A DNA stretch of 63,430 bases from the NCBI GenBank assembly GCA_037139415.1, contig JBAXGN010000014.1:1-63430 (forward strand). The letters run 5' to 3'. This DNA is from Verrucomicrobiota bacterium (lineage in GTDB: Bacteria > Verrucomicrobiota > Verrucomicrobiia > Limisphaerales > Fontisphaeraceae). The translations under genes and the position numbers were made by a program. The notes below the pieces were generated by a model, which made no database searches, was not told the origin of the DNA, and saw only the letters and a program-made list of their open reading frames with translations. Shown piece after piece: positions 24,336-41,184 of this stretch; position 1 is the stretch's first letter; each line of letters begins with the position of its first letter.

Positions 24336-27300
24336 CTACGGCACCAACCTCAAATTCACTGAAAATCCTTGCGGCGACACTTTATCCAGGCTGTTGCTCA
24401 GCTTCTGCCAATGCGCTACTCCATTCGTTCTGACGAAACTCACATATCCCAGCCACATGCCTTTGCCTGAGTATAGCGATTGATACATCACCACTTCGTT
24501 CTGCACAGTCAAAGGCAGCGATCCGGTCAATTTCGTTTTATCTGATAAGGTTCCGGTTAGGATTACGGTTCCAGAAGGCAGAACTGACAATTGAAAGGTT
24601 CCATTCGTATTGCCAAGCTGAGTTACCGCCGTCATCAAGTAATTCGCCTTCTGCGCTACCTTCAACACCTTATCCGCCCACAAATCAGCAGCCCAGGTCG
24701 TTCCTTGCTTGATTCTGCCAGATATTCCATTACCTCCACTCAAATCCAGATTCATCATTATTTGTAGCGCCGGATCTTTGCCACGAGCGATTGAATTCGA
24801 GAAAACCCCACCCACATCAAACGTTCCCCCTGCTGGATACGCTTTGCCTTGATAGGTGAGTTGACCAGTGAATGTGCCTTTGTCAGTTACGGTTAGTTTC
24901 AAAGTTCCGCTATTCGTCCAGTCAGCATTGGATAAATCATTGCTGGGGCTGAAAATACCCACGTAATCACCTTTGCGGGATAGGAATGCGTTGGTGATGA
25001 AGTTGGCGGTTAAGGTCAGGTTGGATCGCATAGTGAACTTTAAGATTGGTCCGCTTGTCATGACGATCCCACCGCCATTAATCCAGTTGGAGAGCTGATA
25101 GCCCATTCCCGGTGTCGCCGTCATCATATAGCTTTGCCCAAGTTCCAACAGTTTGCCGTTATAGCTGCCTTTGATCGTGCCGATGCCATTGGTCTGAACC
25201 GTTAATGTGTCACTCGCAATGTAGAGAAAACTAACGCTGTTGGTTGCGGAATAGTTGCCGGCAGCGTCCAAGGCGTATGCCTTGACCGTATTGGAGCGCG
25301 TCGTCAATGTCATTACCGCCGACCAATTAGTCCAGTTATTGACCGAGACAGCGTTGCTCCAGGCACCACCGTTCAATTGCCACAGTGCATTGGCTACTGC
25401 AATATGATCCTTGGCTGCTCCTTTGGCAGTTAATACCATATTGCTCACTCGTTGTCCCGTCACCAGATTGGTAATGCTCAGAATCGGTTTGCTTGTGTCC
25501 ACAAAGTTGGCCTTCAATACCAAATTGCTTTGCATCACGAACTGCAATGTTGCACCGTTAGTTAGTACTGTCAGCGGCGATGAAATACCGCCCATCCAGT
25601 TCGCGAAGGCAAACCCCGCTCCCGCTGTCGCTGTCATGGAATAACTCTTCCCGACTTGCATGAGTGTATTGTTGAAGTTCGGTTTCAGAGATCCCAACCC
25701 GTTGGTGCTAACCGCTAGTGCTGTGCTTAAAACTCCGATAAAACTTACACTGTTAGTTGCCGAAATGTTACCAGTGGTGTCCATCGCATAGGTTTGGATT
25801 GTGTTGGTACCCGCAATCAGGTTTACTGTCGCCGACCAGTTGCTCCAGTTATCGGTAGTCGTCGCCTTTGTCCAAGCTGTGTCGTTCAATGAATACAAAA
25901 CATTTGACACCGTTACATTGTCACCGGCCTTGCCTGTCACCGTGAATACTCCGTTGCTCCACCGTTGCCCTGACGTCGGCGAGGTGATGTTGTTGGTTGG
26001 CTTTTGAATGTCCACAAAGTTGGCCTTCAATACCAAATTACTTTGCATCACGAACTGCAATGTTGCACCGTTAGTTAGTACTGTCAGCGGCGATGAAATA
26101 CCGCCCATCCAGTTCGCGAAGGCAAACCCCGCTCCCGCTGTCGCTGTCATGGAATAACTCTTCCCGACTTGCATGAGTGTATTGTTGAAGTTCGGTTTCA
26201 GAGATCCCAACCCGTTGGTGCTAACCGCTAGTGCTGTGCTTAAAACTCCGATAAAACTTACACTGTTAGTTGCCGAAATGTTACCAGTGGTGTCCATCGC
26301 ATAGGTTTGGATTGTGTTGGTACCCGCAATCAGGTTTACTGTCGCCGACCAGTTGCTCCAGTTATCGGTAGTCGTCGCCTGATTCCAACCTGATCCATTT
26401 ATTTGATACCACACATTGGATAATTGGACATTGTCTCTGGCGGTACCCATTACGGTAATTACAGAATTGGGCCATCGCTGACCGGGCAGAGGCAAAACAA
26501 TGGTATTCGTCGGTATTCTGATATCAATAAAATTGGCTGTTAACGTGCGGTTGGTGTTAAGAACAAAAATATATTCTGGCGTCGTACTAGCCACAGTTCC
26601 ATTTTCTGTCCAGTTGGTAAATGCATAACCGGCATTAGCAGACGCGGTTACTGCTTGGGAATTACCAGCCGCAAATGTGCCGCCACCGCTAGTCATGCCA
26701 CCGATACTTGGTGATGCAGAAACACTAATTGAATACGCTAAAGTGTAAGTACCGAGAAATGCATTGGTAATGTTTTGACTAACGCTAACAGTTTGACTTG
26801 CCGGAGCAAGCCACCCGACAATGTTCTTGAATGTCACGGTGTGATTGCCAGCGGAAAGATGGTTCACCACAGCCTCGTTGGTTTGGAAAATCCTGCCATC
26901 TACTTGCCATTGCGCGCCATTGGTCACCGCCTCTGCGGGATTTAGCTTCAGTGCCAAAGAGCCGTTTGGCGTGCCCGTTGGCGGATCGAAAATCTCTGCA
27001 TGGGTACCAATGGAATCGCCTCCTGTAACTAGCACTTCGCCATTGCGCAGCAAGGTTGCCGTGTGTGCAGTACGTGCATAGACCATCGGGGTGGCTGTCG
27101 CCCAAGTTCCAATAATCGGATCGTAAAGTTCTGTGCCTACACCAAAGCCTCCGGCGACAAACACTTTGCCATTAGGCAGCAGCGTTGCGGTGTGGCTGCT
27201 GCGAGAGCTACTCATCGAACCTGTCACCGCCCACGTTCCCACAGTGGGATCATATAACTCGGAGCTGGAAAGCTTTGCACTGCCGCTATCCCCTCCCGCA

Positions 27301-29129
27301 ACCAGCACAAGCCCATTGGGCAGTAAAGTTGCCGTATGAAAACCGCGTGCAGCAGTCATTGCAGCGGTCGGTATCCAAGTTTCAGTGGATGGATTATATA
27401 GTTCTGCGCTAGAAAGATTGTTGCCAGTGGAGGGAGTGTAATAGACACCACCTGCAACCAGCACAAGCCCATTAGGCAGTAAAGTTGCAGTATGACCACA
27501 GCGTGCAGAGGCCATTGATCCCGTTTTTGACCACGCCGATGCAGCAGGGTCATATAGCTCCGCGCTAGAACGAGTATATACGGCATAAGGGACCACATCC
27601 CATGCTCCCCCGGTAACCAGCACCTTGCCGTTAGTCAGCAAGGTTGCGGTGTGGAGCCCGCGTGTGTCGTTCATTGGGCTGACTAATGCCCATGAGTTGA
27701 CAATTGGGTCATATAGCTCTGTTCTGGAAATATATACTGGGTTAACCCTCCAGGTTTCACCTCCTGCGACAAGCACCTTCCCATTGGGCAGAACCGTCCC
27801 TGAATGGAATTCGCTGGGCGTATTTAAAGGGCCGGTCGCCGTCCATGTCCCACTCGACGAATCATACAGCTCTGTGTTAGAAGCACTTGAATTGCCGCCA
27901 GCGACAAGCACATGACCATCTGTCAGCAGGTTGGCTGTATGAAAACTGTGTGAGGCAATCATCGGCCCAACCGTCGTCCAATAACCATCAGGCGCATCGT
28001 ATAGTTCAGCGCTAGAAAGGGTTGAGCAATAAGAACCAGCGTCCGGACAAATGACACCGCCGCCTGCAAGCAGCAGTTTTCCATCAGGCAGCAAGGTCGC
28101 CGTTTGTCCTCCACGCATAGTCGTTAATGGGCTAATAGTCGTCCAAACTCCACTTGGTGGATCGTAAACCTCAGCACTGGAATATGTCACCGTTGCTGCG
28201 TTGCCCCTGCGTGACCATCCGCCCGTCACAAGCACCTGTCCGTTAGGCAAAAGGGTCATCGAGTGTCCAGATCGTGGGTTTTGCATACTTGCTACCGGCG
28301 ACCATACCGGTGACCATGTTCCTGTGGCGGGATCGTATATTTCACAACTAGCCAATTCCGATGCAGACCCACTGCCTCCTGCTACCAGTACTTGGCCGTT
28401 GGGAAATAGGATTGCCGCATGACCAGAGCGATTATTATTAAGCGAACCAGTTGTTGTCCATGTCCCAGAAACCGGATCATACAGCTCTGAAATACGTCCA
28501 GCTCCCCCTGCAACTAATACCTTTCCGTTAGGTAGCAAGGTGCTTGTGAATGATGTATGTTTGGTACGCATGATCCAAGCAGTCGGAGTCCACATATCAC
28601 TCAATGGATCATATATCTCAGATGTGGAATGAAGAACATTGGGGCCACGCCACCAATTGGTTGAAGTGCCGCCTACAATCAGCACTTGCCCATTCGTCAG
28701 CAGAGTAGCTGTAAGGCTATTTCCACATGCATAATTCATTGGTCTGGTTGAAGCCCAGGTATCCGCCGCAGGATCGTAAAGCGCCGCACCGTCCCCTGCA
28801 GCACTTCCCCCCACGACTAAAACCTTACCATTGCGCATCATCACCGCCGCACCGCTACGCGAGGCGACCATGGAGCCTGTAGCGGTCCAGATCCCTGATT
28901 CGGGATCGTATATTTCAGCGTTCGCACCCGTGGTATTTCCCCCAACAATTAAAGTCTTTCCGTTGGGTAAAAGAGTGGCAGTATGATTTACGCGCGCTGT
29001 AGTCATCGCGCTAGGGACAGAGGTGGCCTTTACTGGTTGAATGACCAGTAAAATAGAAAATAATGAAACCATCACCAACGTCCGAATGAATGAAGTAATA
29101 GTTCGCGGTTGAGTTTTCATAGCTGTCAT
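24336..29129 (-). CDS. 1597-residue secreted kelch-repeat protein with PEGA, Ig-like and InlB-like modules
   Basis: Exported (signal peptide within the first 35 residues, ending near VKATSVPS). Residues about 40-715 are 14 kelch-type repeats with consensus HTATLLPNGKVLVAGG, a variable loop, then ELYDPxxGTW, enough for two seven-bladed propellers. Then come a PEGA-like domain (about 720-790), an InlB-like repeat (about 800-866), and three Ig-like/InlB-like pairs to about residue 1377. The last 220 residues match the C-terminal module of the 12.8 kb protein. Two of the Ig/InlB pairs are near identical at DNA level. The start overlaps the stop of the upstream ORF in ATGA (29126-29129); ATG at 29120 is an alternative. 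Reads AT-richer than flanks. Likely adhesion or glycan binding; no enzyme motif. Confidence 0.8.
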   Translation of the reverse strand: MTAMKTQPRTITSFIRTLVMVSLFSILLVIQPVKATSVPSAMTTARVNHTATLLPNGKTLIVGGNTTGANAEIYDPESGIWTATGSMVASRSGAAVMMRNGKVLVVGGSAAGDGAALYDPAADTWASTRPMNYACGNSLTATLLTNGQVLIVGGTSTNWWRGPNVLHSTSEIYDPLSDMWTPTAWIMRTKHTSFTSTLLPNGKVLVAGGAGRISELYDPVSGTWTTTGSLNNNRSGHAAILFPNGQVLVAGGSGSASELASCEIYDPATGTWSPVWSPVASMQNPRSGHSMTLLPNGQVLVTGGWSRRGNAATVTYSSAEVYDPPSGVWTTISPLTTMRGGQTATLLPDGKLLLAGGGVICPDAGSYCSTLSSAELYDAPDGYWTTVGPMIASHSFHTANLLTDGHVLVAGGNSSASNTELYDSSSGTWTATGPLNTPSEFHSGTVLPNGKVLVAGGETWRVNPVYISRTELYDPIVNSWALVSPMNDTRGLHTATLLTNGKVLVTGGAWDVVPYAVYTRSSAELYDPAASAWSKTGSMASARCGHTATLLPNGLVLVAGGVYYTPSTGNNLSSAELYNPSTETWIPTAAMTAARGFHTATLLPNGLVLVAGGDSGSAKLSSSELYDPTVGTWAVTGSMSSSRSSHTATLLPNGKVFVAGGFGVGTELYDPIIGTWATATPMVYARTAHTATLLRNGEVLVTGGDSIGTHAEIFDPPTGTPNGSLALKLNPAEAVTNGAQWQVDGRIFQTNEAVVNHLSAGNHTVTFKNIVGWLAPASQTVSVSQNITNAFLGTYTLAYSISVSASPSIGGMTSGGGTFAAGNSQAVTASANAGYAFTNWTENGTVASTTPEYIFVLNTNRTLTANFIDIRIPTNTIVLPLPGQRWPNSVITVMGTARDNVQLSNVWYQINGSGWNQATTTDNWSNWSATVNLIAGTNTIQTYAMDTTGNISATNSVSFIGVLSTALAVSTNGLGSLKPNFNNTLMQVGKSYSMTATAGAGFAFANWMGGISSPLTVLTNGATLQFVMQSNLVLKANFVDIQKPTNNITSPTSGQRWSNGVFTVTGKAGDNVTVSNVLYSLNDTAWTKATTTDNWSNWSATVNLIAGTNTIQTYAMDTTGNISATNSVSFIGVLSTALAVSTNGLGSLKPNFNNTLMQVGKSYSMTATAGAGFAFANWMGGISSPLTVLTNGATLQFVMQSNLVLKANFVDTSKPILSITNLVTGQRVSNMVLTAKGAAKDHIAVANALWQLNGGAWSNAVSVNNWTNWSAVMTLTTRSNTVKAYALDAAGNYSATNSVSFLYIASDTLTVQTNGIGTIKGSYNGKLLELGQSYMMTATPGMGYQLSNWINGGGIVMTSGPILKFTMRSNLTLTANFITNAFLSRKGDYVGIFSPSNDLSNADWTNSGTLKLTVTDKGTFTGQLTYQGKAYPAGGTFDVGGVFSNSIARGKDPALQIMMNLDLSGGNGISGRIKQGTTWAADLWADKVLKVAQKANYLMTAVTQLGNTNGTFQLSVLPSGTVILTGTLSDKTKLTGSLPLTVQNEVVMYQSLYSGKGMWLGYVSFVRTNGVAHWQKLSNSLDKVSPQGFSVNLRLVP
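25498..25867. repeat. Direct repeat, copy 1 (370 bp, intragenic)
   Basis: Identical, as read by eye, to 26011-26380 except for one G/A difference near position 30 of the repeat. The offset is 513 bases, exactly 171 codons, so the reading frame of the kelch protein is kept. Confidence 0.9.
26011..26380. repeat. Direct repeat, copy 2 (370 bp, intragenic)
   Basis: Second copy of the unit at 25498-25867. It covers most of an Ig-like domain and a full InlB-like repeat. Near identity between the copies against clear divergence of the third Ig/InlB pair points to a recent duplication or gene conversion. Confidence 0.9.
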
Positions 29130-30064: not shown

Positions 30065-30750
30065 AAGGGCTCGTGATGAAGATCGCCACTCCGATGTATC
30101 AAAATTCCGGCTTTATAGCATTTCTCGATTATGAGTTTCCGCGTCTGCGGGCTGCACTCGTCCTCCGCCACAACCCACGCCCCGAGCTTGTAGCCATACC
30201 CATTTTTATCTTGCTTTGGACTTGTAAATAACTCTAGTTTCAGGGCGTCGTACTCTTCGGTCTCCCGGTTGCTCCTTTTCTTGACCTCTACAACAAGCAG
30301 ATTACTTTCATCGTTTCGCCGCTCATGCACGACGATGTCTGGCGCAACTGAGAAGACGTAAAATCCGTCGTCGTCTGCCTCCAGATTCCTGCGCCTCGCC
30401 GCCTTTACGATTACCCTAATCCTCTCTTCGGCATCCGCTGCCAGCAACTTCTTTTCCCCAACGTGCCGATTGTATTCGCAGTCCACGACAATTTGGTTGG
30501 CTCCCCCCAAGCACAACCTCCGTAGTTCGCATTCGATGTAAACCGCCAAGCGATGGGCTATTGCACGCTCACTGGCTCCAGCCCAATCAGGTGAATGTTC
30601 CAGCGTGTCTTCGCTACGGGGACAAAGCAGAGTGCATGGCTCTCCACTTTGGTTGAAGCGGTCAATGCCTTTTCTAAGGCATTGCCAGACGAGGTCTTCC
30701 ACCCTGGCAGAGGTAGATCCAAGATGTTGACTATCATCCTTATTGCTCAT
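30061..30750 (-). CDS. PD-(D/E)XK nuclease-like protein
   Basis: A 229-residue cytoplasmic protein starting MSNKDDSQHLGS (an upstream in-frame ATG at 30771 lacks a better ribosome site). The central part has a possible nuclease core: VAPDIVVHERR with the first Asp, then after about 14 residues LLVVEVKKRS giving E-x-K, followed by a helix and YGYKLGAWVV, a strand. This order is the PD-(D/E)XK pattern used by restriction and repair nucleases and by inactive relatives. No helicase, methylase or specificity gene is adjacent. It is divergent from trpS. Its stop overlaps the start of the kelch remnant in ATGA. The fold is inferred from a motif, not from a recognised family. Confidence 0.5.
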   Translation of the reverse strand: MSNKDDSQHLGSTSARVEDLVWQCLRKGIDRFNQSGEPCTLLCPRSEDTLEHSPDWAGASERAIAHRLAVYIECELRRLCLGGANQIVVDCEYNRHVGEKKLLAADAEERIRVIVKAARRRNLEADDDGFYVFSVAPDIVVHERRNDESNLLVVEVKKRSNRETEEYDALKLELFTSPKQDKNGYGYKLGAWVVAEDECSPQTRKLIIEKCYKAGILIHRSGDLHHEPL

Positions 30751-30880
30751 ATGTGATGAACCTACGCCCATACCGGCTGGGGAATCAAGCGTAATTGTTT
30801 ATCGGGAAAGTCAGCAGCCGATCTGCGCCAAACTGACACTTCTCCTTGCATCCGGGCGGGGGCTGATTAAGCTGTTTCCC

Positions 30881-31849
30881 ATGCGAATTTTATCAGGCAT
30901 ACAACCGTCGGGCACGCTGCATCTCGGGAATTATTTCGGGATGATGATGCCGGCCATGGAATTGCAGTCCAAGGGCCAGGCCTATTATTTTATCGCCAAT
31001 TACCATTCCATGACCTCGCTGTTTGATGCCGAACAGCGCCGCAAAAACACCCTCGAAGTGGCCGTTGACTTTCTGGCGTGCGGTCTGGACCCCAAGCAGG
31101 CCACGTTCTTCCGGCAATCCGATGTGCCTGAAGTGTGCGAATTGACCTGGCTGCTCACCACCATCACCCCCATGGGTTTGCTGGAGCGCTGCCACAGTTA
31201 CAAGGACAAGCTGGCCAAAGGCATTTCGTTCAACCACGGTTTGTTTGCCTACCCGGTGCTCATGGCCGCCGACATCCTGATTTACGATTCCAACATCGTG
31301 CCGGTGGGGCGCGACCAAAAACAACACCTGGAAGTCGCCCGCGACATCGCCGGCAAGTTCAACGAACAATATGGCCAGACCTTTGTCATCCCGGAGCCCA
31401 TGATCCGCGAGGAGGTCGCGGAAGTGCCCGGCGTGGATGGCCAAAAGATGAGCAAGAGCTACGGCAATGCCATCGAAATCTTTGGTGACGAAAAAGTCCT
31501 GCGTAAAAAAATTATGAGCCTGGTAATGGACAGCCGTTCGCCGCAGGAACCGAAGCCGGACGCGGAAAAGAACCTGGCGATCAAGCTGCTCAAGCTGGTG
31601 GCTCCCCCTGCCGTGGCGCAGGATTTTGAAGACCGTCTGCGGGCGGGCGGGCTGGGTTATGGGGATTTGAAAAAGGCGCTGTTCGAGCATTATTGGAATT
31701 GCTTTGCCGCCGCACGCACTCGCCGGGCGGAATTGGTGGCCAACCTGGATTACGTCGAACAGGTTTTACGAGACGGCGCGCAACGCGCCCGGACGGAAGC
31801 CGTGAAAGTGCTCGACCGCGCCCGCCGCGCGTCCGGAGTATCAGCCTAG
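30881..31849 (+). CDS. trpS: Tryptophan--tRNA ligase
   Basis: A 322-residue class I aminoacyl-tRNA synthetase charging tRNA-Trp. The start MRILSGIQPSGTLHLGN contains the HIGH-type signature (TLHLGN), and QKMSKSYGN is the KMSKS loop near residue 190. GRDQKQHLEVARDIA, which binds tryptophan, and SLVMDSRSPQEPK are also typical. Length fits bacterial TrpS. An in-frame ATG 138 bases upstream is ignored because the conserved N terminus begins at 30881. The next gene starts 9 bases after the stop, so both are probably on one transcript. Confidence 0.97.
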   Translation: MRILSGIQPSGTLHLGNYFGMMMPAMELQSKGQAYYFIANYHSMTSLFDAEQRRKNTLEVAVDFLACGLDPKQATFFRQSDVPEVCELTWLLTTITPMGLLERCHSYKDKLAKGISFNHGLFAYPVLMAADILIYDSNIVPVGRDQKQHLEVARDIAGKFNEQYGQTFVIPEPMIREEVAEVPGVDGQKMSKSYGNAIEIFGDEKVLRKKIMSLVMDSRSPQEPKPDAEKNLAIKLLKLVAPPAVAQDFEDRLRAGGLGYGDLKKALFEHYWNCFAAARTRRAELVANLDYVEQVLRDGAQRARTEAVKVLDRARRASGVSA

Positions 31850-31858
31850 CAGTTCTTT

Positions 31859-33400
31859 ATGAAAACGGGGCCTGTTGTGAATCGTGCCGGGGGCCTGCAT
31901 CCGGGCCTCGGATGGACTTTGGCCACCGCTGTGGTGCTGGGCTTGCTGATCTGGTTGTTACCCCGGCAGAAAACACCCGGCGGCATGACTGGCGAGCAAC
32001 CGGCGCTGGTGGTTTATTGCGCGGCGGGCATCCAGTCACCGGTGCAGGAAGTGGCGCGGGAATTCGAGAAACTGTATGGCGTCAAAATCCAACTGCAATA
32101 CGGCGGCTCGGGAACGTTGCTTGCCAATTTGAAGGTGTCCAAGATCGGCGACCTGTTCATCCCCGGTGACGAGAGTTACATCACCCTGGGAAAACAGCAG
32201 GGCTTGCTGGCGGAAGTTCTGCCGCTTGCGCACCAGGTGCCGGTGATCATCGTGCGCCGGGGCAATCCTGCAAAGATTCAAACGGTCAAGGATTTGCTGC
32301 GGACCGGCATCAAGGTATCACTGGCCAATCCGGAAGCCGCTTCGATTGGAACGATTGTCAAGCGGGTATTAAGCGCCTCGGGCGACTGGGCCGCCTTGGA
32401 AGCCCAGACCCGGAAGTCGGGCGTATTCAAACCCACCGTCAACGATGTGGCCAACGACGTAAAGCTGGGGGCGGTGGATGCCGGCGTGGTCTGGGATGCC
32501 ACTGCCCAACAGTATCCCGCATTAGAGATGGTGCGGGTGCCGGAATTTGCCCAAGCCGGTCAAACCATCAGTGTGGCCGTCTTGAACAGCACCCGGCAGT
32601 CGGCCTTGGCGTTGCGCTTCGCGCGCTACCTGGGGGCGCGCGACAAAGGCCTCAAGGCTTTCACCCGCTGGCATTACAGCGTGGCGGAAGGTGATGCGTG
32701 GGCGGAGATCCCCCAAATCACACTGTTCAGCGGTGCAATGCTGCGACCCGGCGTCGAGCAAACCCTCAAAGATTTTGAGCAGCGCGAGGGCGTGCGCATC
32801 AACACCATTTACAACGGCTGCGGCATCCTGACCTCCCAGATGCGCGCTGGGCAGCGCCCCGACGCCTATTTTGCGTGCGACACTTCTTTCATGAAATCCG
32901 TGCAGGACCTGTACCACGACAGCGTGACCATTTCAGAAAATGAAATCCTCATCATCGTGCCCAAGGGAAACCCGCAAAAAATTCAGACGGTGGAGGATCT
33001 GACCAAACCCGGCTTGCGCCTGGGCCTGGCGCATCCGGAGAAATCCGCCATGGGCGCGCTGACGAAAAACATGCTGGTGGCGATGGGACGCTACGAAGCG
33101 GTATGCCGGAACCTGAAGTTGGATTCGCCGACCGGCGACTTCCTGATCAACCAACTACGCACCGGCTCGCTGGATGCCATCATCGCCTGCCGCAGCAACG
33201 CGCAGAATGTGCGTGAACATGTGGAGGTCATCCGCATTGACCATCCGTTGGCCACGGCGGTACAGCCCTACGGCGTGGCCAAATCCACCCAATACCAGCA
33301 ACTCATGACCCGGCTCTTGGAGATGATTGAAAGCCCCGCCTCGAGCAACCGTTTTACCGGTGCCGGTTTCTATTGGCGTTTTCAAGCCCGGACCAATTAA
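31859..33400 (+). CDS. Membrane-anchored tandem ModA-type substrate-binding protein
   Basis: A 513-residue protein with one N-terminal transmembrane helix (about residues 18-37) and two complete ModA/SBP_bac_11-type domains in line. The first starts LVVYCAAGIQSPVQEVA, contains QYGGSGTLLANL and DLFIPGDESY and runs to about residue 275; the second starts ITLFSGAMLRPGVEQTL, contains YNGCGILTSQMRAG and DAYFACDTSFM and runs to about 505. Both have GNPxKIQTVxDL followed by the LANPE/LAHPE segment. ModA domains bind molybdate or tungstate oxyanions. No permease or ATPase gene is adjacent, so partner transport proteins lie elsewhere, or it is a sensor. Transcribed with trpS, 9 bases away. Confidence 0.8.
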   Translation: MKTGPVVNRAGGLHPGLGWTLATAVVLGLLIWLLPRQKTPGGMTGEQPALVVYCAAGIQSPVQEVAREFEKLYGVKIQLQYGGSGTLLANLKVSKIGDLFIPGDESYITLGKQQGLLAEVLPLAHQVPVIIVRRGNPAKIQTVKDLLRTGIKVSLANPEAASIGTIVKRVLSASGDWAALEAQTRKSGVFKPTVNDVANDVKLGAVDAGVVWDATAQQYPALEMVRVPEFAQAGQTISVAVLNSTRQSALALRFARYLGARDKGLKAFTRWHYSVAEGDAWAEIPQITLFSGAMLRPGVEQTLKDFEQREGVRINTIYNGCGILTSQMRAGQRPDAYFACDTSFMKSVQDLYHDSVTISENEILIIVPKGNPQKIQTVEDLTKPGLRLGLAHPEKSAMGALTKNMLVAMGRYEAVCRNLKLDSPTGDFLINQLRTGSLDAIIACRSNAQNVREHVEVIRIDHPLATAVQPYGVAKSTQYQQLMTRLLEMIESPASSNRFTGAGFYWRFQARTN

Positions 33401-33414
33401 ATCCGAACTTTGGA

Positions 33415-35016
33415 TCAAACCGCCTTGCGGGCAATGCTGTTACGCTGTGCCCAGGCGGGATCGGCGTTCGGATAATCCAAATTGTGATGCAGCCCGCGGC
33501 TTTCGGGGCGTTGCAGGGCGCAACGCACCACCAATTCCGCCACCGTGGCAATGTTGCGCAATTCCAACAAGTCGCTGGTGATGCGAAAATCCCAGTAGTA
33601 CTCCTGGATTTCCGATTGCAGCAAATCAATGCGGGCCTTGGCGCGTTGCAGGCGTTTGTTGGTGCGCACAATCCCCACATAATCCCACATTACCCGGCGC
33701 AGTTCGTCCCAGTTGTGCGACACCACCACAAATTCATCCGCATTGGTGGCGTTACCATAATGCCAGTCGGGAATCTTCACCTCGGTGAGCGGCAACGGAT
33801 TGGCCACAGACTTCAGGGCCGCTCGGTGGGCGCAAACCACGGCTTCCAACAGCGAATTACTGGCGAGCCGGTTGGCACCATGCAGTCCGGTGCAGGCCAC
33901 TTCGCCAATCCCATACAGCCCGGCGATTTCCGTTTCGCCGTCCAGGTTGGTCACCACGCCACCGCATTGGTAATGGGCCGCCGGGACCACCGGGATGTAT
34001 TCCTTCGTGATATCAATGCCGTATTGCAGGCAGCTCTGGTAAATGTTGGGAAAACGGTTCATCAGGAACCGCGCAGATTTGTGCGTGATGTCCAACCAGA
34101 CGTGTTCTGCGCCGGTGCGCTTCATCTCGCTGTCAATGGCGCGGGCCACAATGTCGCGCGGGGCGAGCGACTTCAACGGATGGACGTGGTCCATGAATTC
34201 GTTGCCCTCCAAGTTTTTGAGCACTCCGCCCTCCCCGCGGACCGCCTCGCTGACGAGGAATGATTTCGCTTTGGGATGAAACAGGCAGGTGGGATGAAAC
34301 TGGACAAACTCCATGTTGGCGATGGACGCTCCCGCCCGGAACGCCATGGCCACGCCATCGCCCGTGGCGATATCAGGATTGGTGGTGTACAGATACACCT
34401 TGCCGCAACCGCCGGTGGCCAGTACCACGGTGTTGGCCGCAAAGGTGATGACCTCCCCGGATTCCTTGCTGAGCACATACGCCCCGAGGCAGCGGTTGGT
34501 CCCCACATAACCCAGCTTTTGCGTGGTGATCAGGTCCACGCCAAAATGATTCTCGAATATCTCGATGCGCGGTTCGCGGGCACAGGCTTGGAGCAACGCT
34601 TGTTCAATTTCCCGTCCGGTCATGTCCTTGGCATGCAGGATGCGGCGGTGCGAATGCCCCCCTTCCATGCCCAAATCCAGCTCTTTTTTGCCGGCGGCGT
34701 TTGGGGAGGTTTTTTCGGAGAACTGAATGCCATACTCAATCAGTTCGGCGATGCGCGCCGGGCCCTCGGAAATGATGGCGCGTACCGCCGGTTCGTTGCA
34801 CAGGCCCGCGCCTGCCGTCAGGGTATCCTGGATATGGCTGTCCAGCGAATCATCCTTGGCCATCACGGCAGCGATGCCCCCTTGGGCGTAGTTGGAATTG
34901 GATTCGGCGCTGTTCTTTTTGGTCACCACAGCCACCCGTCCGTGTTTGGACGCCTTGAGCGCGTAAAACAGCCCCGCAATGCCGCTGCCCAGTACCAGGA
35001 AATCGTATGATTTCAT
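33415..35016 (-). CDS. nadB: L-aspartate oxidase
   Basis: A 533-residue FAD enzyme oxidising L-aspartate to iminoaspartate, the first step of NAD synthesis. FAD-binding motif GSGIAGLFYALKAS is at the N terminus, then SNSNYAQGGIAAVM, and TGGCGKVYLYTTNP near residue 205. The catalytic-core HPTCLFHPKAKSFLVSEAVRGE and the C-terminal helical domain of the succinate-dehydrogenase flavoprotein family are both present. It follows panC with a 4-base ATGA overlap (35013-35016), so the two are co-translated. NadA and NadC are not in the window. Confidence 0.96.
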   Translation of the reverse strand: MKSYDFLVLGSGIAGLFYALKASKHGRVAVVTKKNSAESNSNYAQGGIAAVMAKDDSLDSHIQDTLTAGAGLCNEPAVRAIISEGPARIAELIEYGIQFSEKTSPNAAGKKELDLGMEGGHSHRRILHAKDMTGREIEQALLQACAREPRIEIFENHFGVDLITTQKLGYVGTNRCLGAYVLSKESGEVITFAANTVVLATGGCGKVYLYTTNPDIATGDGVAMAFRAGASIANMEFVQFHPTCLFHPKAKSFLVSEAVRGEGGVLKNLEGNEFMDHVHPLKSLAPRDIVARAIDSEMKRTGAEHVWLDITHKSARFLMNRFPNIYQSCLQYGIDITKEYIPVVPAAHYQCGGVVTNLDGETEIAGLYGIGEVACTGLHGANRLASNSLLEAVVCAHRAALKSVANPLPLTEVKIPDWHYGNATNADEFVVVSHNWDELRRVMWDYVGIVRTNKRLQRAKARIDLLQSEIQEYYWDFRITSDLLELRNIATVAELVVRCALQRPESRGLHHNLDYPNADPAWAQRNSIARKAV

Positions 35017-36043: not shown

Positions 36044-37102
36044 ATGACTGAACGACTTCGATGCGCAGTAATTGGCACAGGGGCCATTGGCCTCGACCAT
36101 TTAAACAGTTTGCTTCATTGTCCACGCGCCACGGCGGTGGCCATCTGTGAAATCCATCCACAGCGCGCGCGGGAAGCCGCTGAACGTTATAAAATCGCCC
36201 GTAGTTACTCGGATTATCGCGAGTTGCTCGACCAGCCGGATATTGACGCGGTGATTGTGGCCGTGCCGAATCACTTGCACGCCAAAGTGGCGGTGGATGC
36301 CTTGAAGGCGCGCAAGCACGTGCTGCTCGAAAAGCCCATGGCCACCAACGCCAAGGACGCCGCCAAAATCGTGGAGACTGCCCAAGCCATGAAACAGGTG
36401 TTGATGGTGGCGCAGAATCTTCGGTTCCATCGCCATACCCAGGTGGCCCGTAGCTTCTTGCAACGCGGCGACTTGGGCCAGATTTACCACGCCCGCGCCT
36501 TCTGGCTGCGGCGCAACGGCATCCCTCGTATTGGCTCCTGGTTCACCCAGAAAAAGTTTTCCGGTGGCGGCTGCACCTATGATATCGGTGTCCACATGCT
36601 GGATTTATGCCTGCATTTACTGGGTGAATTTGAGGTGACCCGGGTGACCGGCTACCTGGCGGCAAAATTCGGGCCTCGCGGGCTGGCCGAGACAGATTGG
36701 GGGCGGAGCGAAATTGATCCTTTGAAACCTTTTGATGTGGAAGACTTTAGCACTGCTCTGCTTCAGCTCAAGAGTGGCCGCACGGTGGCCCTCGAGGCAT
36801 CCTGGGCCGGGATGCATGCGCCTGACGCGCGTGAACAAGGCGTGGACCTGTTGGGAACAACCGGCGGGTTGAGCCTGTTTCCGGCCCGGCTGTACCGGCA
36901 GGGTGCCAACGGCACCGAGGCTACCTGGTTGCACACTCCCAAGGTATCCTGCCCGGAAGACCGGGTGCATCATTTCGTCCAGTGTGTGTTGGAAGGCAAA
37001 AAGCTGCTCGTTCCCCCCGAGGAATCCTTGAAAGTTCAGCAGATTCTCGATGCGATTTACACCTCTGCTGCAACCGGCAAGGAAGTGACCTTAAAATGTT
37101 AA
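36044..37102 (+). CDS. Gfo/Idh/MocA-family NAD(P)-dependent oxidoreductase
   Basis: A 352-residue enzyme starting MTERLRCAVIGTGAIG. The Rossmann motif GTGAIGLDH, the VAVPNHLHAKVA segment and the EKPM motif (catalytic lysine, about residue 96) are intact. GGGCTYDIGVHMLDLCLHL carries the conserved Asp-x-x-x-His pair. Members oxidise or reduce sugars, inositols and related polyols; the specific substrate is not visible. An ATG 66 bases upstream is ignored because the family N terminus begins at 36044. Its stop overlaps the likely start of the PQQ-repeat protein gene by 7 bases, so the two are probably one operon. Confidence 0.93.
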   Translation: MTERLRCAVIGTGAIGLDHLNSLLHCPRATAVAICEIHPQRAREAAERYKIARSYSDYRELLDQPDIDAVIVAVPNHLHAKVAVDALKARKHVLLEKPMATNAKDAAKIVETAQAMKQVLMVAQNLRFHRHTQVARSFLQRGDLGQIYHARAFWLRRNGIPRIGSWFTQKKFSGGGCTYDIGVHMLDLCLHLLGEFEVTRVTGYLAAKFGPRGLAETDWGRSEIDPLKPFDVEDFSTALLQLKSGRTVALEASWAGMHAPDAREQGVDLLGTTGGLSLFPARLYRQGANGTEATWLHTPKVSCPEDRVHHFVQCVLEGKKLLVPPEESLKVQQILDAIYTSAATGKEVTLKC

Positions 37103-40100
37103 CCCTCAATTCCCGCCAGTCGGCCCCACCGTGTGCTGTTCGGCAATCCGAATTCCGAATTCCGAATTCCGAAATCAGGTGTTCCGCATTCTCTGCTTTC
37201 CGTCTCCTTACCTCGACGGCTACTTGGGGCTTGCTGGCCCTCACTTGCGGTTTGTTGGTCCACTCACTCCAAGCCCAATCGGCGGTGGAGGCAGGCGCTC
37301 TCGCGAAGGAGATTTTGAAGGCCACTGGTGTCAAAGGCGGCTTAATTGTGCATTTGGGCATTGGCGATGGCCAATTAACCGGCGCGCTGCGCGTCGGCGA
37401 GCAATACCAGGTGCAGGGATTGGACCGCAGTTGGCCAAAGGTGGAGGCGGCGCGCGCCAATCTTAAAAAGCTGGACGTGTATGGCCCGGTTTCCGTGGAC
37501 CGCTTGCAAGGTGGGGTGCTGCCTTACATTGATAACCTGATCAACCTCGTTGTGGTTGAGGACCTGAGCGGGATTTCCATGCCGGAAATCATGCGGGTGC
37601 TTTGCCCAAACGGGGTGGCTTATGTCAAACAGGGCGGTGCTTGGCAAAAAACCGTGAAATCCCGTCCGCCGGAAATGGACGAGTGGACCCATTACTACTA
37701 TGACGCTCGTGGTAATCCGGCATCCAAAGATCTGGTCGTGGCTCCTCCGGAACGCCTCCAGTGGGTGGGTAGCCCCCGTTGGTCACGGCATCACGACCGC
37801 ATGTCCAGCTTGAGCGCGCAGGTATCGGCAGGCGGGCGCTTGTTCTATATCATGGATGAAGGGTCGCGCATTTCGATTCTGCTGCCCTCGAAATGGTTTC
37901 TCACGGCACGTGATGCCTTCAATGGCACCATCCTTTGGAAACGGCCCATTGCCGAATGGCAAACCCATCTTTGGCCGCTAAAGTCAGGCCCCACGCAACT
38001 GGCCCGTCGCCTCGTCGCCATGGGGCAGCATGTCTATGCCACGTTATCCATCAATGACCCGGTGAGTTGCCTGGATGCCGCCACCGGTGAGACCGTGCGC
38101 GAGTATGCCAATACGGCGGGCGCCGAGGAAATCGTCATGGTCAACGGGGTGCTGTATGTGCTGGTGAACCCGGAACTGTGGGTGCTGCATGACTTTGCCC
38201 CGAAGCAAAACACGGGCGACCAAAAGCGCGTGGAAACCGAGTTCAATTGGGATGAGAAAAAGCGGTTGCTGGTGGCGGTGGAAGCGGCGACTGGGAAATT
38301 GCTATGGAAACAGGAAGCCAAAGTGGCACCGCTCACCCTGGCTGCCGATGGCCAACGGGTGGTGTATCATAATGGCGAAAGCATCGTGTCCCTTGATCCC
38401 GCCAGCGGGAAACAACAATGGAAGAGTACGCCGATGGGAAAACGCCGGTTGTTTGAATTTAATTACGGCCCGCGGGTGGTGCTGCACGGCGAGGTCGTGC
38501 TCTACGCCGGCGGGGATGGCGCGATGAAAGGCGTGGCCGCCGCGAGCGGTAAGGAACTCTGGTCCGCCCCCCATCAAAAATCCGGTTATCGCTCGCCGGA
38601 AGACCTGATTATCACTGGTGGCTTGGTGTGGAACGCCCCCACCACTTCTGGAACCATGTCGGGCGCATTCTCTGGACGCGATCCGCTTACCGGTGAGGTC
38701 AAAGTCGAATTTCCCCCCGACGTGGACACGTACTGGTTTCATCATCGTTGTTACATCGCCAAGGCCACGGAACGCTTCATCCTGCCCTCGCGTACTGGCA
38801 TTGAATTTGTGGATATCAATAAAAAGAGCTGGGAAATCAACCACTGGGTGCGTGGTGCCTGCCTCTACGGGGTCATGCCGTGCAACGGCTTGGTTTATGC
38901 CGGTCCGCATAACTGCGCGTGTTACCCCGAGGCGAAGCTGGATGGCATGAATGCCCTGGCCCCCGGCACGATGTCCGCTCATCCCAAACCCCGGCCGGAT
39001 GCGGAACGGTTTGAGCAAGGCCCGGCCTACGGGCAACCCCTCCAGGAACTTGCCGCGCATGTGAATGACTGGCCCACGTACCGTCATGATGCCGCCCGGA
39101 GCGGACATACCGATCAGCCCTTATCAGACAACCTTGAGGAATCCTGGAAAGTCGAATTGAGCGGGCGGTTGAGCGCGCCCACCATCGCCGATGGCAAGGT
39201 ATTTGTGGCGCAAGTGGACCAGCACATGGTGCATGCATTGCGCGCGGATTCCGGCGGGATACAGTGGACTTATATCGCCGGTGGACGCGTGGATTCACCG
39301 CCCACGTACTGGCAGGGCCGGGTCTTGTTCGGTTGCATGGATGGCTACGTGTATTGCCTGCGCGCGGACGATGGCGCGTTGATTTGGCGGTTCCATGCCG
39401 CCGCCATTGACCGGCGGCACACCGCGTTTGAACAGATTGAAAGTGTCTGGCCGGTGCATGGCAGTGTACTGGTCGAAAATGGCGTCGTCAGTTGCGTCGC
39501 CGGACGCTCGGTGTTCCTCGATGGTGGGCTGCGATTTGTCCGTCTGGACGCCGCTACGGGTAAAAAATTGGTGGAAACGGTGTTTAACGAAAAGGATCCG
39601 GAGACCGGCCTGAACCTGCAAACACGCGTCAAAACCCTGCAAATGCCCGTCGGTCTGAACGACGTGCTCTCCGGCGATGGACATTACATTTACCTGCGCA
39701 CGCAGAAAATCAAACCGGACGGCATCCGCGTGGATATTGGCCCGATTTCCGGCAACGCCGCCCAGCAAGGCGGCGCGCAACGGGGCGAGGGCGCGCATAT
39801 TTTCGCGCCTACCGGCTTCCTGGATGACTCCTGGTTCCACCGCAGTTACTGGGTGTACGGCAAAAGCTTTGCTGGCGGCCACAATGGGTATTACCAAGCC
39901 GGCAAATACGCGCCCTCCGGTCAAATCCTGGTGTTCGATGATAAAACTGTGTACGGCTATGGGCGCTTGTCGCAATACTTCAAGTGGACCACCACGATGG
40001 AACGCCAGATGTTCGCCGCCAGCAAAGAGGCGCCGGAGGTGCCGATCCAAGCGCTTCCAGTTGGCGGAAATCAGAAGAAGGGCAAAGCAAAAGGTAAAGC

Positions 40101-41184
40101 TGCGGTGGCTGCCCCCGGGCCCAAGACTCCGCGGATTACGTTTGATGATTCGCCAAAACTGGATCCCGCCAACCAGGCGATTACCGTTGCGGCATGGATC
40201 GAGCCTCATGACAAAGATGGCGTTATTGTGTCCCACGGCGGCGGAAATCATGGCTATGCACTGACCTTGCAAGACGCCATCCCTGCCTTCTCCGTGCGCG
40301 CTACCAAACAGGAAACCACCGCCACCGCCGCCCGGCCCTTGGGTGATGGCTGGCATCATGTCGCGGGCGTGCTGGGTCTCGATAAATCCGTATGCATCTA
40401 TGTGGATGGCCAACTGGCGGCCCAAACCAAGGCCCCGAGCCTGATCCCGCAAAAACCCAATCTCGGGCTGTTCCTTGGAGGTACCGGTAACTCGCTCGTC
40501 ACCAGCCATGGTAACGGTGAACCCTTCACCGGCACGCTGGATCAATTCTTCCTGTACCACCGCGCTTTGGACGCCGGGGAAATCGCTGAACTCATGAACC
40601 AGGGCAAGCGCGGCAATAAATCGCAGGGACTGGTCCTGGCGTGTTCGTTCGATACCGGTACCGCGCGCGATGAATCCGGCAACGGCATCCATGGCGTGGC
40701 CACCGGCACGGAAACCGCCAAGGGCAAAGTGGGAAGCGCCATGTTGTTTCCCAACCCCACCGAGAACCTCGCCGCCGCCGTCCCAGCCGGAAAAGCTGGC
40801 ATCACCAATGTCCCCGCCCGCGCCGGTTCATTCGTCAAAAACCAGTGGGAACGCAAAGTCCCCTCGTTTACCCGGGCGATGGCCATGGCCGGCAAAAAAA
40901 TCTTCATCTCTGGACCGCCCGATACCATTGATGAAGAATACGCCTTCGAGCGCCTCACCAAACATGATAAAGCCGTCAAACAAGACCTCGCTGAACAAGA
41001 TGCCGCGCTGGATGGCAAACGCGGCGCCTCCCTCTTCGCGCTGGACATGGATAGCGGCAAAATGGGTGAAGGCATTGATATGCAAAGTCCACCGGTTTGG
41101 GACGGCATGGCCGTCGCTCGCGGCTGCTTGTTCATGTCCACCCAGGACGGCAAAGTCATTTGCTACGGCAAACCGAAAAATTAA
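37096..41184 (+). CDS. Secreted methyltransferase-like / PQQ-propeller / LamG protein
   Basis: A 1362-residue exported protein. Residues about 60-165 look like a SAM-methyltransferase Rossmann fold (VHLGIGDGQLTGALR, then QGLDRSWPKVEAARANL and NLVVVEDLSG), then EMDEWTHYYYDARGNP opens two PQQ-like propeller segments (about 190-620 and 655-1000; DAATGETVREY, YIAGGRVDSPPTYW). A Lys-rich linker (KKGKAKGKAAV) precedes a LamG/concanavalin domain (about 1010-1160) and a last PQQ-like stretch. I know this architecture from planctomycetes and verrucomicrobia, where function is unproven. The start overlaps the oxidoreductase stop, but a 7-bp microrepeat runs through residues 16-28 before the hydrophobic leader, so a later non-ATG start is possible. 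Confidence 0.75.
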   Translation: MLTLNSRQSAPPCAVRQSEFRIPNSEIRCSAFSAFRLLTSTATWGLLALTCGLLVHSLQAQSAVEAGALAKEILKATGVKGGLIVHLGIGDGQLTGALRVGEQYQVQGLDRSWPKVEAARANLKKLDVYGPVSVDRLQGGVLPYIDNLINLVVVEDLSGISMPEIMRVLCPNGVAYVKQGGAWQKTVKSRPPEMDEWTHYYYDARGNPASKDLVVAPPERLQWVGSPRWSRHHDRMSSLSAQVSAGGRLFYIMDEGSRISILLPSKWFLTARDAFNGTILWKRPIAEWQTHLWPLKSGPTQLARRLVAMGQHVYATLSINDPVSCLDAATGETVREYANTAGAEEIVMVNGVLYVLVNPELWVLHDFAPKQNTGDQKRVETEFNWDEKKRLLVAVEAATGKLLWKQEAKVAPLTLAADGQRVVYHNGESIVSLDPASGKQQWKSTPMGKRRLFEFNYGPRVVLHGEVVLYAGGDGAMKGVAAASGKELWSAPHQKSGYRSPEDLIITGGLVWNAPTTSGTMSGAFSGRDPLTGEVKVEFPPDVDTYWFHHRCYIAKATERFILPSRTGIEFVDINKKSWEINHWVRGACLYGVMPCNGLVYAGPHNCACYPEAKLDGMNALAPGTMSAHPKPRPDAERFEQGPAYGQPLQELAAHVNDWPTYRHDAARSGHTDQPLSDNLEESWKVELSGRLSAPTIADGKVFVAQVDQHMVHALRADSGGIQWTYIAGGRVDSPPTYWQGRVLFGCMDGYVYCLRADDGALIWRFHAAAIDRRHTAFEQIESVWPVHGSVLVENGVVSCVAGRSVFLDGGLRFVRLDAATGKKLVETVFNEKDPETGLNLQTRVKTLQMPVGLNDVLSGDGHYIYLRTQKIKPDGIRVDIGPISGNAAQQGGAQRGEGAHIFAPTGFLDDSWFHRSYWVYGKSFAGGHNGYYQAGKYAPSGQILVFDDKTVYGYGRLSQYFKWTTTMERQMFAASKEAPEVPIQALPVGGNQKKGKAKGKAAVAAPGPKTPRITFDDSPKLDPANQAITVAAWIEPHDKDGVIVSHGGGNHGYALTLQDAIPAFSVRATKQETTATAARPLGDGWHHVAGVLGLDKSVCIYVDGQLAAQTKAPSLIPQKPNLGLFLGGTGNSLVTSHGNGEPFTGTLDQFFLYHRALDAGEIAELMNQGKRGNKSQGLVLACSFDTGTARDESGNGIHGVATGTETAKGKVGSAMLFPNPTENLAAAVPAGKAGITNVPARAGSFVKNQWERKVPSFTRAMAMAGKKIFISGPPDTIDEEYAFERLTKHDKAVKQDLAEQDAALDGKRGASLFALDMDSGKMGEGIDMQSPPVWDGMAVARGCLFMSTQDGKVICYGKPKN
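37145..37176. repeat. AATTCCG heptamer microrepeat inside a signal-peptide region
   Basis: Three exact AATTCCG units (37151-37171) flanked by AATCCG and AAATC. It lies in the coding frame of the PQQ/LamG protein and encodes EFRIPNSE. Same family as 18385-18400, 18537-18567 and 46302-46360. Confidence 0.8.

Follow-up and report, generated by a model that had tools for sequence, protein, structure and literature searches.

The locus raises two questions: why a ModA-type solute-binding protein should carry two binding domains in one chain, and which transporter such a protein would serve. The window, that is the whole stretch of 63,430 nucleotides analysed here, encodes this tandem protein downstream of trpS (Table 1). 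Relatives of the permease, E1, FtsX and CxC proteins described below were not found within positions 20001-45000. Pfam SBP_bac_11 matched the chain in two stretches with 280.6 bits and also matched each half taken singly. The AlphaFold model had a mean pLDDT of 82.7, and both of its halves resembled ModA structures, with Z of about 25 over about 220 residues. Two complete ModA-type domains in one chain, as given in a preliminary description of this DNA, were thus confirmed; they are called domains A and B. The same A-B architecture was present in 45 genes, the window's and 44 others, over 62 stretches compared. A frameshift fusion of two ordinary genes or an assembly error was rejected on these grounds, one of the 44 further genes being located in the one-contig genome G002.

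Table 1. Positions of the features discussed, in the window unless a locus of the same genome is named
Feature	Position	Strand	Basis or remark
trpS	30881..31849	+	upstream of tandem ORF, 9-base gap
Tandem two-domain solute-binding protein	31859..33400	+	513 aa, ATG start, no internal stop
N-terminal hydrophobic helix (residues 21-32), likely membrane anchor	31919..31954	+	AlphaFold model, low confidence there
Domain A (residues 50-273), ModA fold	32006..32677	+	Pfam SBP_bac_11, structure match, alignment
Domain B (about residues 287-504), ModA fold, Cys replacing oxyanion serine	32717..33370	+	Pfam SBP_bac_11, structure match, alignment
Cys321, aligned with ModA Ser39; Cys in 45/45	32819..32821	+	alignment
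Cys340, second invariant Cys of domain B (ModA position 58), 45/45	32876..32878	+	alignment
Cys444, aligned with ModA Tyr170; Tyr in 39/44, Cys in 5/44 including the window	33188..33190	+	alignment
Secreted protein, PQQ-type propeller and LamG, sub-threshold methyltransferase match near N-terminus	36982..41184	+	1400 aa
C216 ModB-like permease (L088)	7827-6982		window's genome
C216 ATPase (L088)	about 7021-6302		about 239 aa
C216 MoeB/ThiF-like E1 (L088)	6287-5535		window's genome

The membrane anchor also held up, as a predicted helix in the window's protein and as a hydrophobic N-terminal segment in 43 of the 45 tandem genes; a simple pattern detected a lipobox-like motif in 5/45. The motif GNPxKIQTVxDL had been noted in both domains. 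Both copies were present, as GNPAKIQTVKDL at residues 135-146 and GNPQKIQTVEDL at residues 370-381, but the motif is nothing special to the tandem protein, because E. coli Sbp has the related version GNPKQIHDWNDL. Transcription together with trpS is plausible, since the two genes lie on the same strand with a minimal gap and a consensus scan of 30500-33600 detected no promoter- or terminator-like site, but trpS was found in none of 56 related loci by tblastn, a search without positive control. A Pfam search matched no output domain in the tandem chain. Known RNA families were not detected at gathering score in the window and five loci.

The distribution of the family was determined in a set of 58 genomes, comprising the window's genome and its 57 nearest. 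The tandem-protein search gave a match in 33 of the 58, and 17, own genome included, had an A-B chain; one more genome, G021, had a divergent one. A draw of 387 genomes from the phylum, among them the window's own, gave 31 with a match at an E value of 1e-30 or better. A scan of named genomes yielded four loci: one Verrucomicrobiota MAG, whose match was 57% identical to the window's protein, two Planctomycetota MAGs and Snuella sedimenti, of a genus that we take to belong to Bacteroidota. Binding proteins were told apart from permeases by domain search. Among the 45 tandem genes, L054 and L077 are truncated at contig ends and L059 has domain A only in part; some genomes contribute two of the 45. 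The fused D1-like pairs L142, L145 and L147 were counted among the 48 in the MAFFT alignment and dropped for the 45. In the comparisons over 58 genomes, the tandem genomes include G004, whose gene is broken by a contig boundary, and the divergent G021; G020, G025 and G048 were entered as domain A only, the match in G048 containing one in-frame TGA. G050, with a single domain of 29% identity, was kept among the other genomes.

A quick tree placed the 45 A domains and five single domains (L056, L057, L067, L141 and L143) in one clade with an SH-aLRT of 99, and the 45 B domains in another with an SH-aLRT of 100. These separate clades suggest that the A-B fusion is older than the spread of the family. 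A more distant group, L144, L146, L148 and L149, had two separate binding-protein genes ahead of one permease. Distant fused pairs occurred in either order, L142 in one and L145 and L147 in the other; beside the fused pair of L142 no permease was seen. With side-by-side pairs and fusions in both orders in this group, two sites for one pump seem to have arisen on more than one occasion.

The preliminary description had pointed to the lack of a transporter next to the gene. This is true of the window, but 34 of the 45 tandem loci have a ModB-like permease gene in the same orientation less than 2 kb downstream, in many cases followed by an ABC ATPase gene. For 11 of the 45, the window's locus included, no ModB-like permease was found in the fetched stretch, and contig ends account for some of these 11 at most. 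The genome search proposed earlier, for a ModBC-like pair without its own ModA, was successful: at C216 of the window's genome, genes for a permease, an ATPase and an E1 lie in a row without a binding protein. By BLAST, the C216 permease was 74% identical to the permease adjoining the tandem gene of L074, which encodes a protein 57% identical to the window's, and 33% identical to the ModB of its own genome at C206. BLAST identities were relied on because four other permeases of this genome stood on very long branches in the permease tree. Genomes G001 and G002, of the same family as the window's genome, shared the arrangement, with a tandem gene without permease, a permease-ATPase-E1 group elsewhere and a CxC protein-FtsX-ATPase group in a third place. 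Judged by sequence kinship, the tandem protein would pair with the C216 pump.

The single-domain genes of L056, L057 and L067 adjoined the same kind of permease as the tandem genes, and the permeases of L057 and L056 were 67% and 71% identical to that of C216. Domain B is thus dispensable, and the permease type alone does not imply a tandem protein. Among the roles proposed earlier, one transporter fed with two ligands was the best supported; the single transporter is backed by the 34 loci and by C216, and the two ligands are inferred. The proposal of a sensor found no support.

Pocket positions were taken from one MAFFT alignment to E. coli ModA, in which we take Ser12, Ser39 and Tyr170 to be the oxyanion ligands. 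In domain A of the window, Gly57 aligned with Ser12, Ser84 with Ser39, Trp212 with Tyr170 and Cys54 with position 9. Most of this pattern was widespread in the family, with Gly at position 12 in 39/44, Ser at position 39 in 38/44, Cys at position 9 in 41/44 and Trp at position 170 in 39/48; position 152 was Val in 44/44. Domain B of the window showed Met, Cys and Cys at positions 12, 39 and 170. Its two invariant cysteines each directly follow a strand of one common lobe in the structure model, and both probably point into the cleft. Genes from Verrucomicrobiota, Planctomycetota and Bacteroidota alike encode the invariant cysteine that replaces the oxyanion serine. Loss of the ligand residues from both halves, which would have spoken against the earlier description, was not observed, as domain A keeps the pocket serine at position 39, but its positions 12 and 170 and all three positions of domain B are changed. 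Since the positions are altered in both halves, differently in each, and domain B has two invariant cysteines, the ligand may be other than molybdate. Excerpts of a study of P. aeruginosa ModA describe four residues that bind via main-chain NH groups, with Asn33 and Thr60 also binding by side chain (PMC9171197); by analogy, domain A could still bind an oxyanion despite its altered residues. The GGSG serine and the tryptophan of domain A aligned with Ser45 and Trp192 of Sbp, both named as sulfate contacts in the excerpted text of PMC7177696. The Ser130-Gly131-Gly132 (SSGG) loop of Sbp was absent from domain A, which has AASIG there.

Profile scores placed the system near known families and mostly below their thresholds. 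The whole tandem chain reached 95.9 bits with NCBIfam modA (TIGR01256, cut-off 62.5); the halves alone, with 56.6 and 43.4 bits, remained below it. Scores against the sulfate-binding model TIGR00971 (32.8 bits) and WtpA TIGR03730 (10.6 bits) were below the curated values of 155.5 and 242.75. The C216 permease scored 155.3 bits with ModB TIGR02141, below 182.6, and 199.3 bits with TIGR01581 Mo_ABC_porter, for which the cut-off is 210.3. The C216 E1 did not reach the threshold of any listed MoeB or ThiF model, with 149.2 bits for MoeB TIGR02355 (376.55) and 192.5 bits for a MoeB model; the small domain TIGR03882 gave 38.4 bits at a cut-off of 36.9.

Compared with ModA and WtpA systems, the ModA fold is present in both halves, and Mo_ABC_porter and WtpC are the top-scoring models for permease and ATPase. 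However, there are two domains per chain, the Ser12 and Tyr170 positions are changed in domain A and Ser39 is replaced by Cys in domain B, the C216 ATPase matches only the first 210 of 347 positions of WtpC, and the adjacent modB and modC genes by which a ModA is recognised are missing in the window. Domain A shares the GGSG serine and the pocket tryptophan with Sbp and CysP, but lacks the SSGG loop and scores far below the family cut-off, and there is one permease gene. The E1 matches a MoeB model and, in 13 loci, has a MoaD-like partner with a GG end, as in the MoeB/ThiF and MoaD/ThiS systems, but it is linked to a transporter and sharply separate in profile score. The tandem gene is real and ordinary in fold, and we class it as a variant of the ModA-class ABC importers and not as a ModA; its unusual traits are the architecture, the cysteine site and the link to sulphur-carrier genes. 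Tandem binding domains that offer one pump two ligands have been described for the amino-acid importer GlnPQ, in which, according to excerpts of PMC8025302, two unlike domains in tandem serve one ABC importer. The tandem of unlike domains is common to both systems, but the GlnPQ domains are amino-acid binders joined to the transmembrane domain, whereas the protein here is separate and of the ModA class. A tandem binding protein of the ModA class did not appear among the matches listed in open PMC text.

The companion genes of the tandem genes hint at sulphur-carrier chemistry. Of the fetched stretches around the 45 tandem genes, 21 contained an E1, 25 a secreted CxC protein and 17 an FtsX-like permease. 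Over the 58 genomes, the E1 occurred in 15, all of them with a tandem gene, and in none of the 40 others; it was missing in three of the 18 tandem genomes (Fisher p 2.7e-11, with relatives that are not independent). The tandem genomes without an intact E1 were G036, G021 and G055. All three genomes with domain A only lacked the E1 (p 0.015). These p values are optimistic because linked genes were among the seeds of the profile and the relatives are not independent. Against its own profile, in which 5 of 14 rows came from five of the 15 positive genomes and partly from genes beside tandem genes, the E1 scored 355 bits or more and the next proteins of the 58 genomes 212 or less. The profiles for CxC and MoaD-like proteins were likewise partly seeded from tandem-gene neighbours; two of the three profiles, A4 and A3, each drew 5 of 14 rows from the 58 genomes. 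The E1 and domain B thus tend to co-occur. MoaD-like proteins with AGG or SGG at the end were detected in 13 of the 72 loci that were searched; 10 of these 13 had served as profile seeds. The window's own order accounted for 37 loci, among them C216, and none of these had such a protein.

The CxC motif was conserved in 18 of 19 FtsX proteins and in 25 of 26 secreted proteins, 24 of which have CSC. The secreted CxC protein was found in 13 of the 58 genomes, 11 of these with a tandem gene; a structure model of the L074 protein was unusable, with a mean pLDDT of 37.7. The FtsX proteins resemble the LolCDE/MacB systems in their FtsX and MacB_PCD matches and in the LolD-like ATPase beside FtsX in L076, but differ by the conserved CxC and the secreted CxC partner. 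The FtsX-CxC permease of the window's genome is encoded in a third place, C173. Directly after it follows a ModF-like double ABC ATPase (L155 1971-3545, 371.6 bits at a cut-off of 459); in G001 and G002 this position is taken by a LolD-like ATPase. A second CxC-protein gene of the window's genome, at C13 (L156), adjoins a gene for a propeller protein, a paralogue with 57% identity to the large propeller protein of the window (Table 1). The cluster of the latter was represented in 18 of the 62 stretches, and it is uncertain whether this protein is part of the system here. A rhodanese lipoprotein adjoined a tandem or single-domain binding-protein gene in L132, L135 and L141. The same three stretches also encoded a protein of about 970 aa. 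From linkage and co-occurrence, the pump, the E1 and the CxC proteins would form one pathway.

We consider it probable that the tandem protein is a two-site binding protein for one importer, located at C216 here and tied to sulphur-carrier chemistry. It would be the binding subunit of a type I ABC importer of the molybdate/tungstate/sulfate class, held in the membrane by its helix, with domains A and B both supplying one permease-ATPase pair. In the window's genome this pair would be encoded apart, together with the MoeB/ThiF-like E1. Domain A would take up a tetrahedral oxyanion. Domain B would be a derived second site, probably for a thiol-reactive or soft-metal ligand, or serve redox gating, because the oxyanion serine is replaced by cysteine and a second cysteine is invariant. 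The importer may work alongside sulphur-carrier chemistry, represented by the E1 and in some relatives by the MoaD-like protein, and alongside the CxC-bearing FtsX-type permease and the secreted CxC protein. What the analysis established is the predicted fold, the tandem architecture, the conservation of the cysteines, the gene linkage and co-occurrence, and the existence of a permease-ATPase pair lacking a binding protein of its own; the pairing with C216, transport, the ligands and the role of the sulphur carrier are inferred.

Among the alternatives, a plain molybdate/tungstate importer, taking the place of ModABC and supplying molybdenum cofactor synthesis, would make the E1 and the MoaD-like protein ordinary cofactor parts. 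This is rather unlikely, even though the best NCBIfam models for binding protein, permease, ATPase and E1 were ModA, Mo_ABC_porter, WtpC and MoeB, and the MoaD-like proteins matched SAMP1 and MoaD models. Among the 43 genomes without canonical ModB, a subset picked after the data were seen, MoaC was present in 16/19 with a tandem or A gene and in 11/24 without (p 0.013). Canonical ModB was rarer in genomes with tandem or A-type genes (2/21 against 13/37 others, p 0.059). Over all 58 genomes, however, the link to MoaC was not significant (17/21 against 23/37, p 0.16). Neither the window's genome nor G001, which both have the system, yielded MoaC, MoeA or MoaE. The absence of a gene from a draft genome counts for little as evidence, though, and in G002 the three genes are adjacent, so that one assembly gap could hide them all. 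Nor are the relatives compared here independent of one another. Furthermore, the window's genome already holds a ModABC-like set at C206 (L167 1370-4172), the ModB of which exceeds the model's cut-off, as well as an ordinary MoeB-rhodanese at C83, and the pocket residues are unlike those of ModA. A link to AOR tungsten enzymes was rejected, as no AOR-type enzyme was found in the window's genome.

An import of sulphur oxyanions, with domain A as a sulfate or thiosulfate binder in a second system of this kind, appears unlikely. The serine and tryptophan shared with the Sbp sulfate contacts fit it, as do the E1, MoaD-like, MoeB-rhodanese and rhodanese lipoprotein neighbours in relatives. The loop from Ser130 to Gly132 of Sbp is not kept, however, and the two best permease models, Mo_ABC_porter and modB, rank above the sulfate model. 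Sulfate importers have two permease genes, and a single one is present here. Even less probable is a redox switch formed by the cysteines of domain B, by which B would gate or sense while A binds. In its favour, both invariant cysteines of domain B belong to the same lobe and one of them occupies a ligand position, and domain A occurs alone beside such a permease in three loci. A precedent is the redox-sensitive disulfide of A. baumannii ModA, the formation of which lowers molybdate affinity from 0.177 to 30 nM according to excerpts of PMC11734730. The positions differ, however, 39 and 58 here against Cys141 and Cys189 in the protein numbering of A. baumannii, and a cysteine in place of a ligand residue suggests a changed ligand and not an added switch. 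A role outside transport, as a membrane-anchored sensor or a periplasmic chaperone for metal or sulphur, is improbable. The hydrophobic N-terminus agrees with it, as do the 11 tandem loci in which no permease was found and the stretches of L132, L135 and L136, which have a CxC protein, in two cases with a rhodanese, and no permease; against it stand the permeases close downstream in the other loci and the lack of a matched output domain.

The invariant cysteines and their link with the dedicated sulphur-carrier E1 and the CxC envelope proteins suggest a so far undescribed envelope pathway, perhaps for uptake linked to sulphur or metal. A more specific version is speculative and has a small chance of being right. 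In this version, the importer would combine an oxyanion pocket with a cysteine-lined pocket for a soft metal, persulfide or thio-anion, e.g., thiomolybdate or thiotungstate, and, tied to the E1/MoaD-like carrier and the CxC FtsX module, would make or recycle an envelope metal-sulphur cofactor.

Further observations concerned genes outside the proposed system. The genome that carries the ModABC-like set at C206 yielded no MoaC, MoeA or MoaE. Molybdopterin-family frames with one in-frame TGA were located at G005:C148, G021:C17, G025:C43, G030:C113 and G055:C136, as expected of selenocysteine formate dehydrogenases. In the window, upstream of trpS, an ORF of 1597 aa at 24336-29129 encodes many Kelch-like repeats, and long identical internal repeats were seen by eye in its second half.
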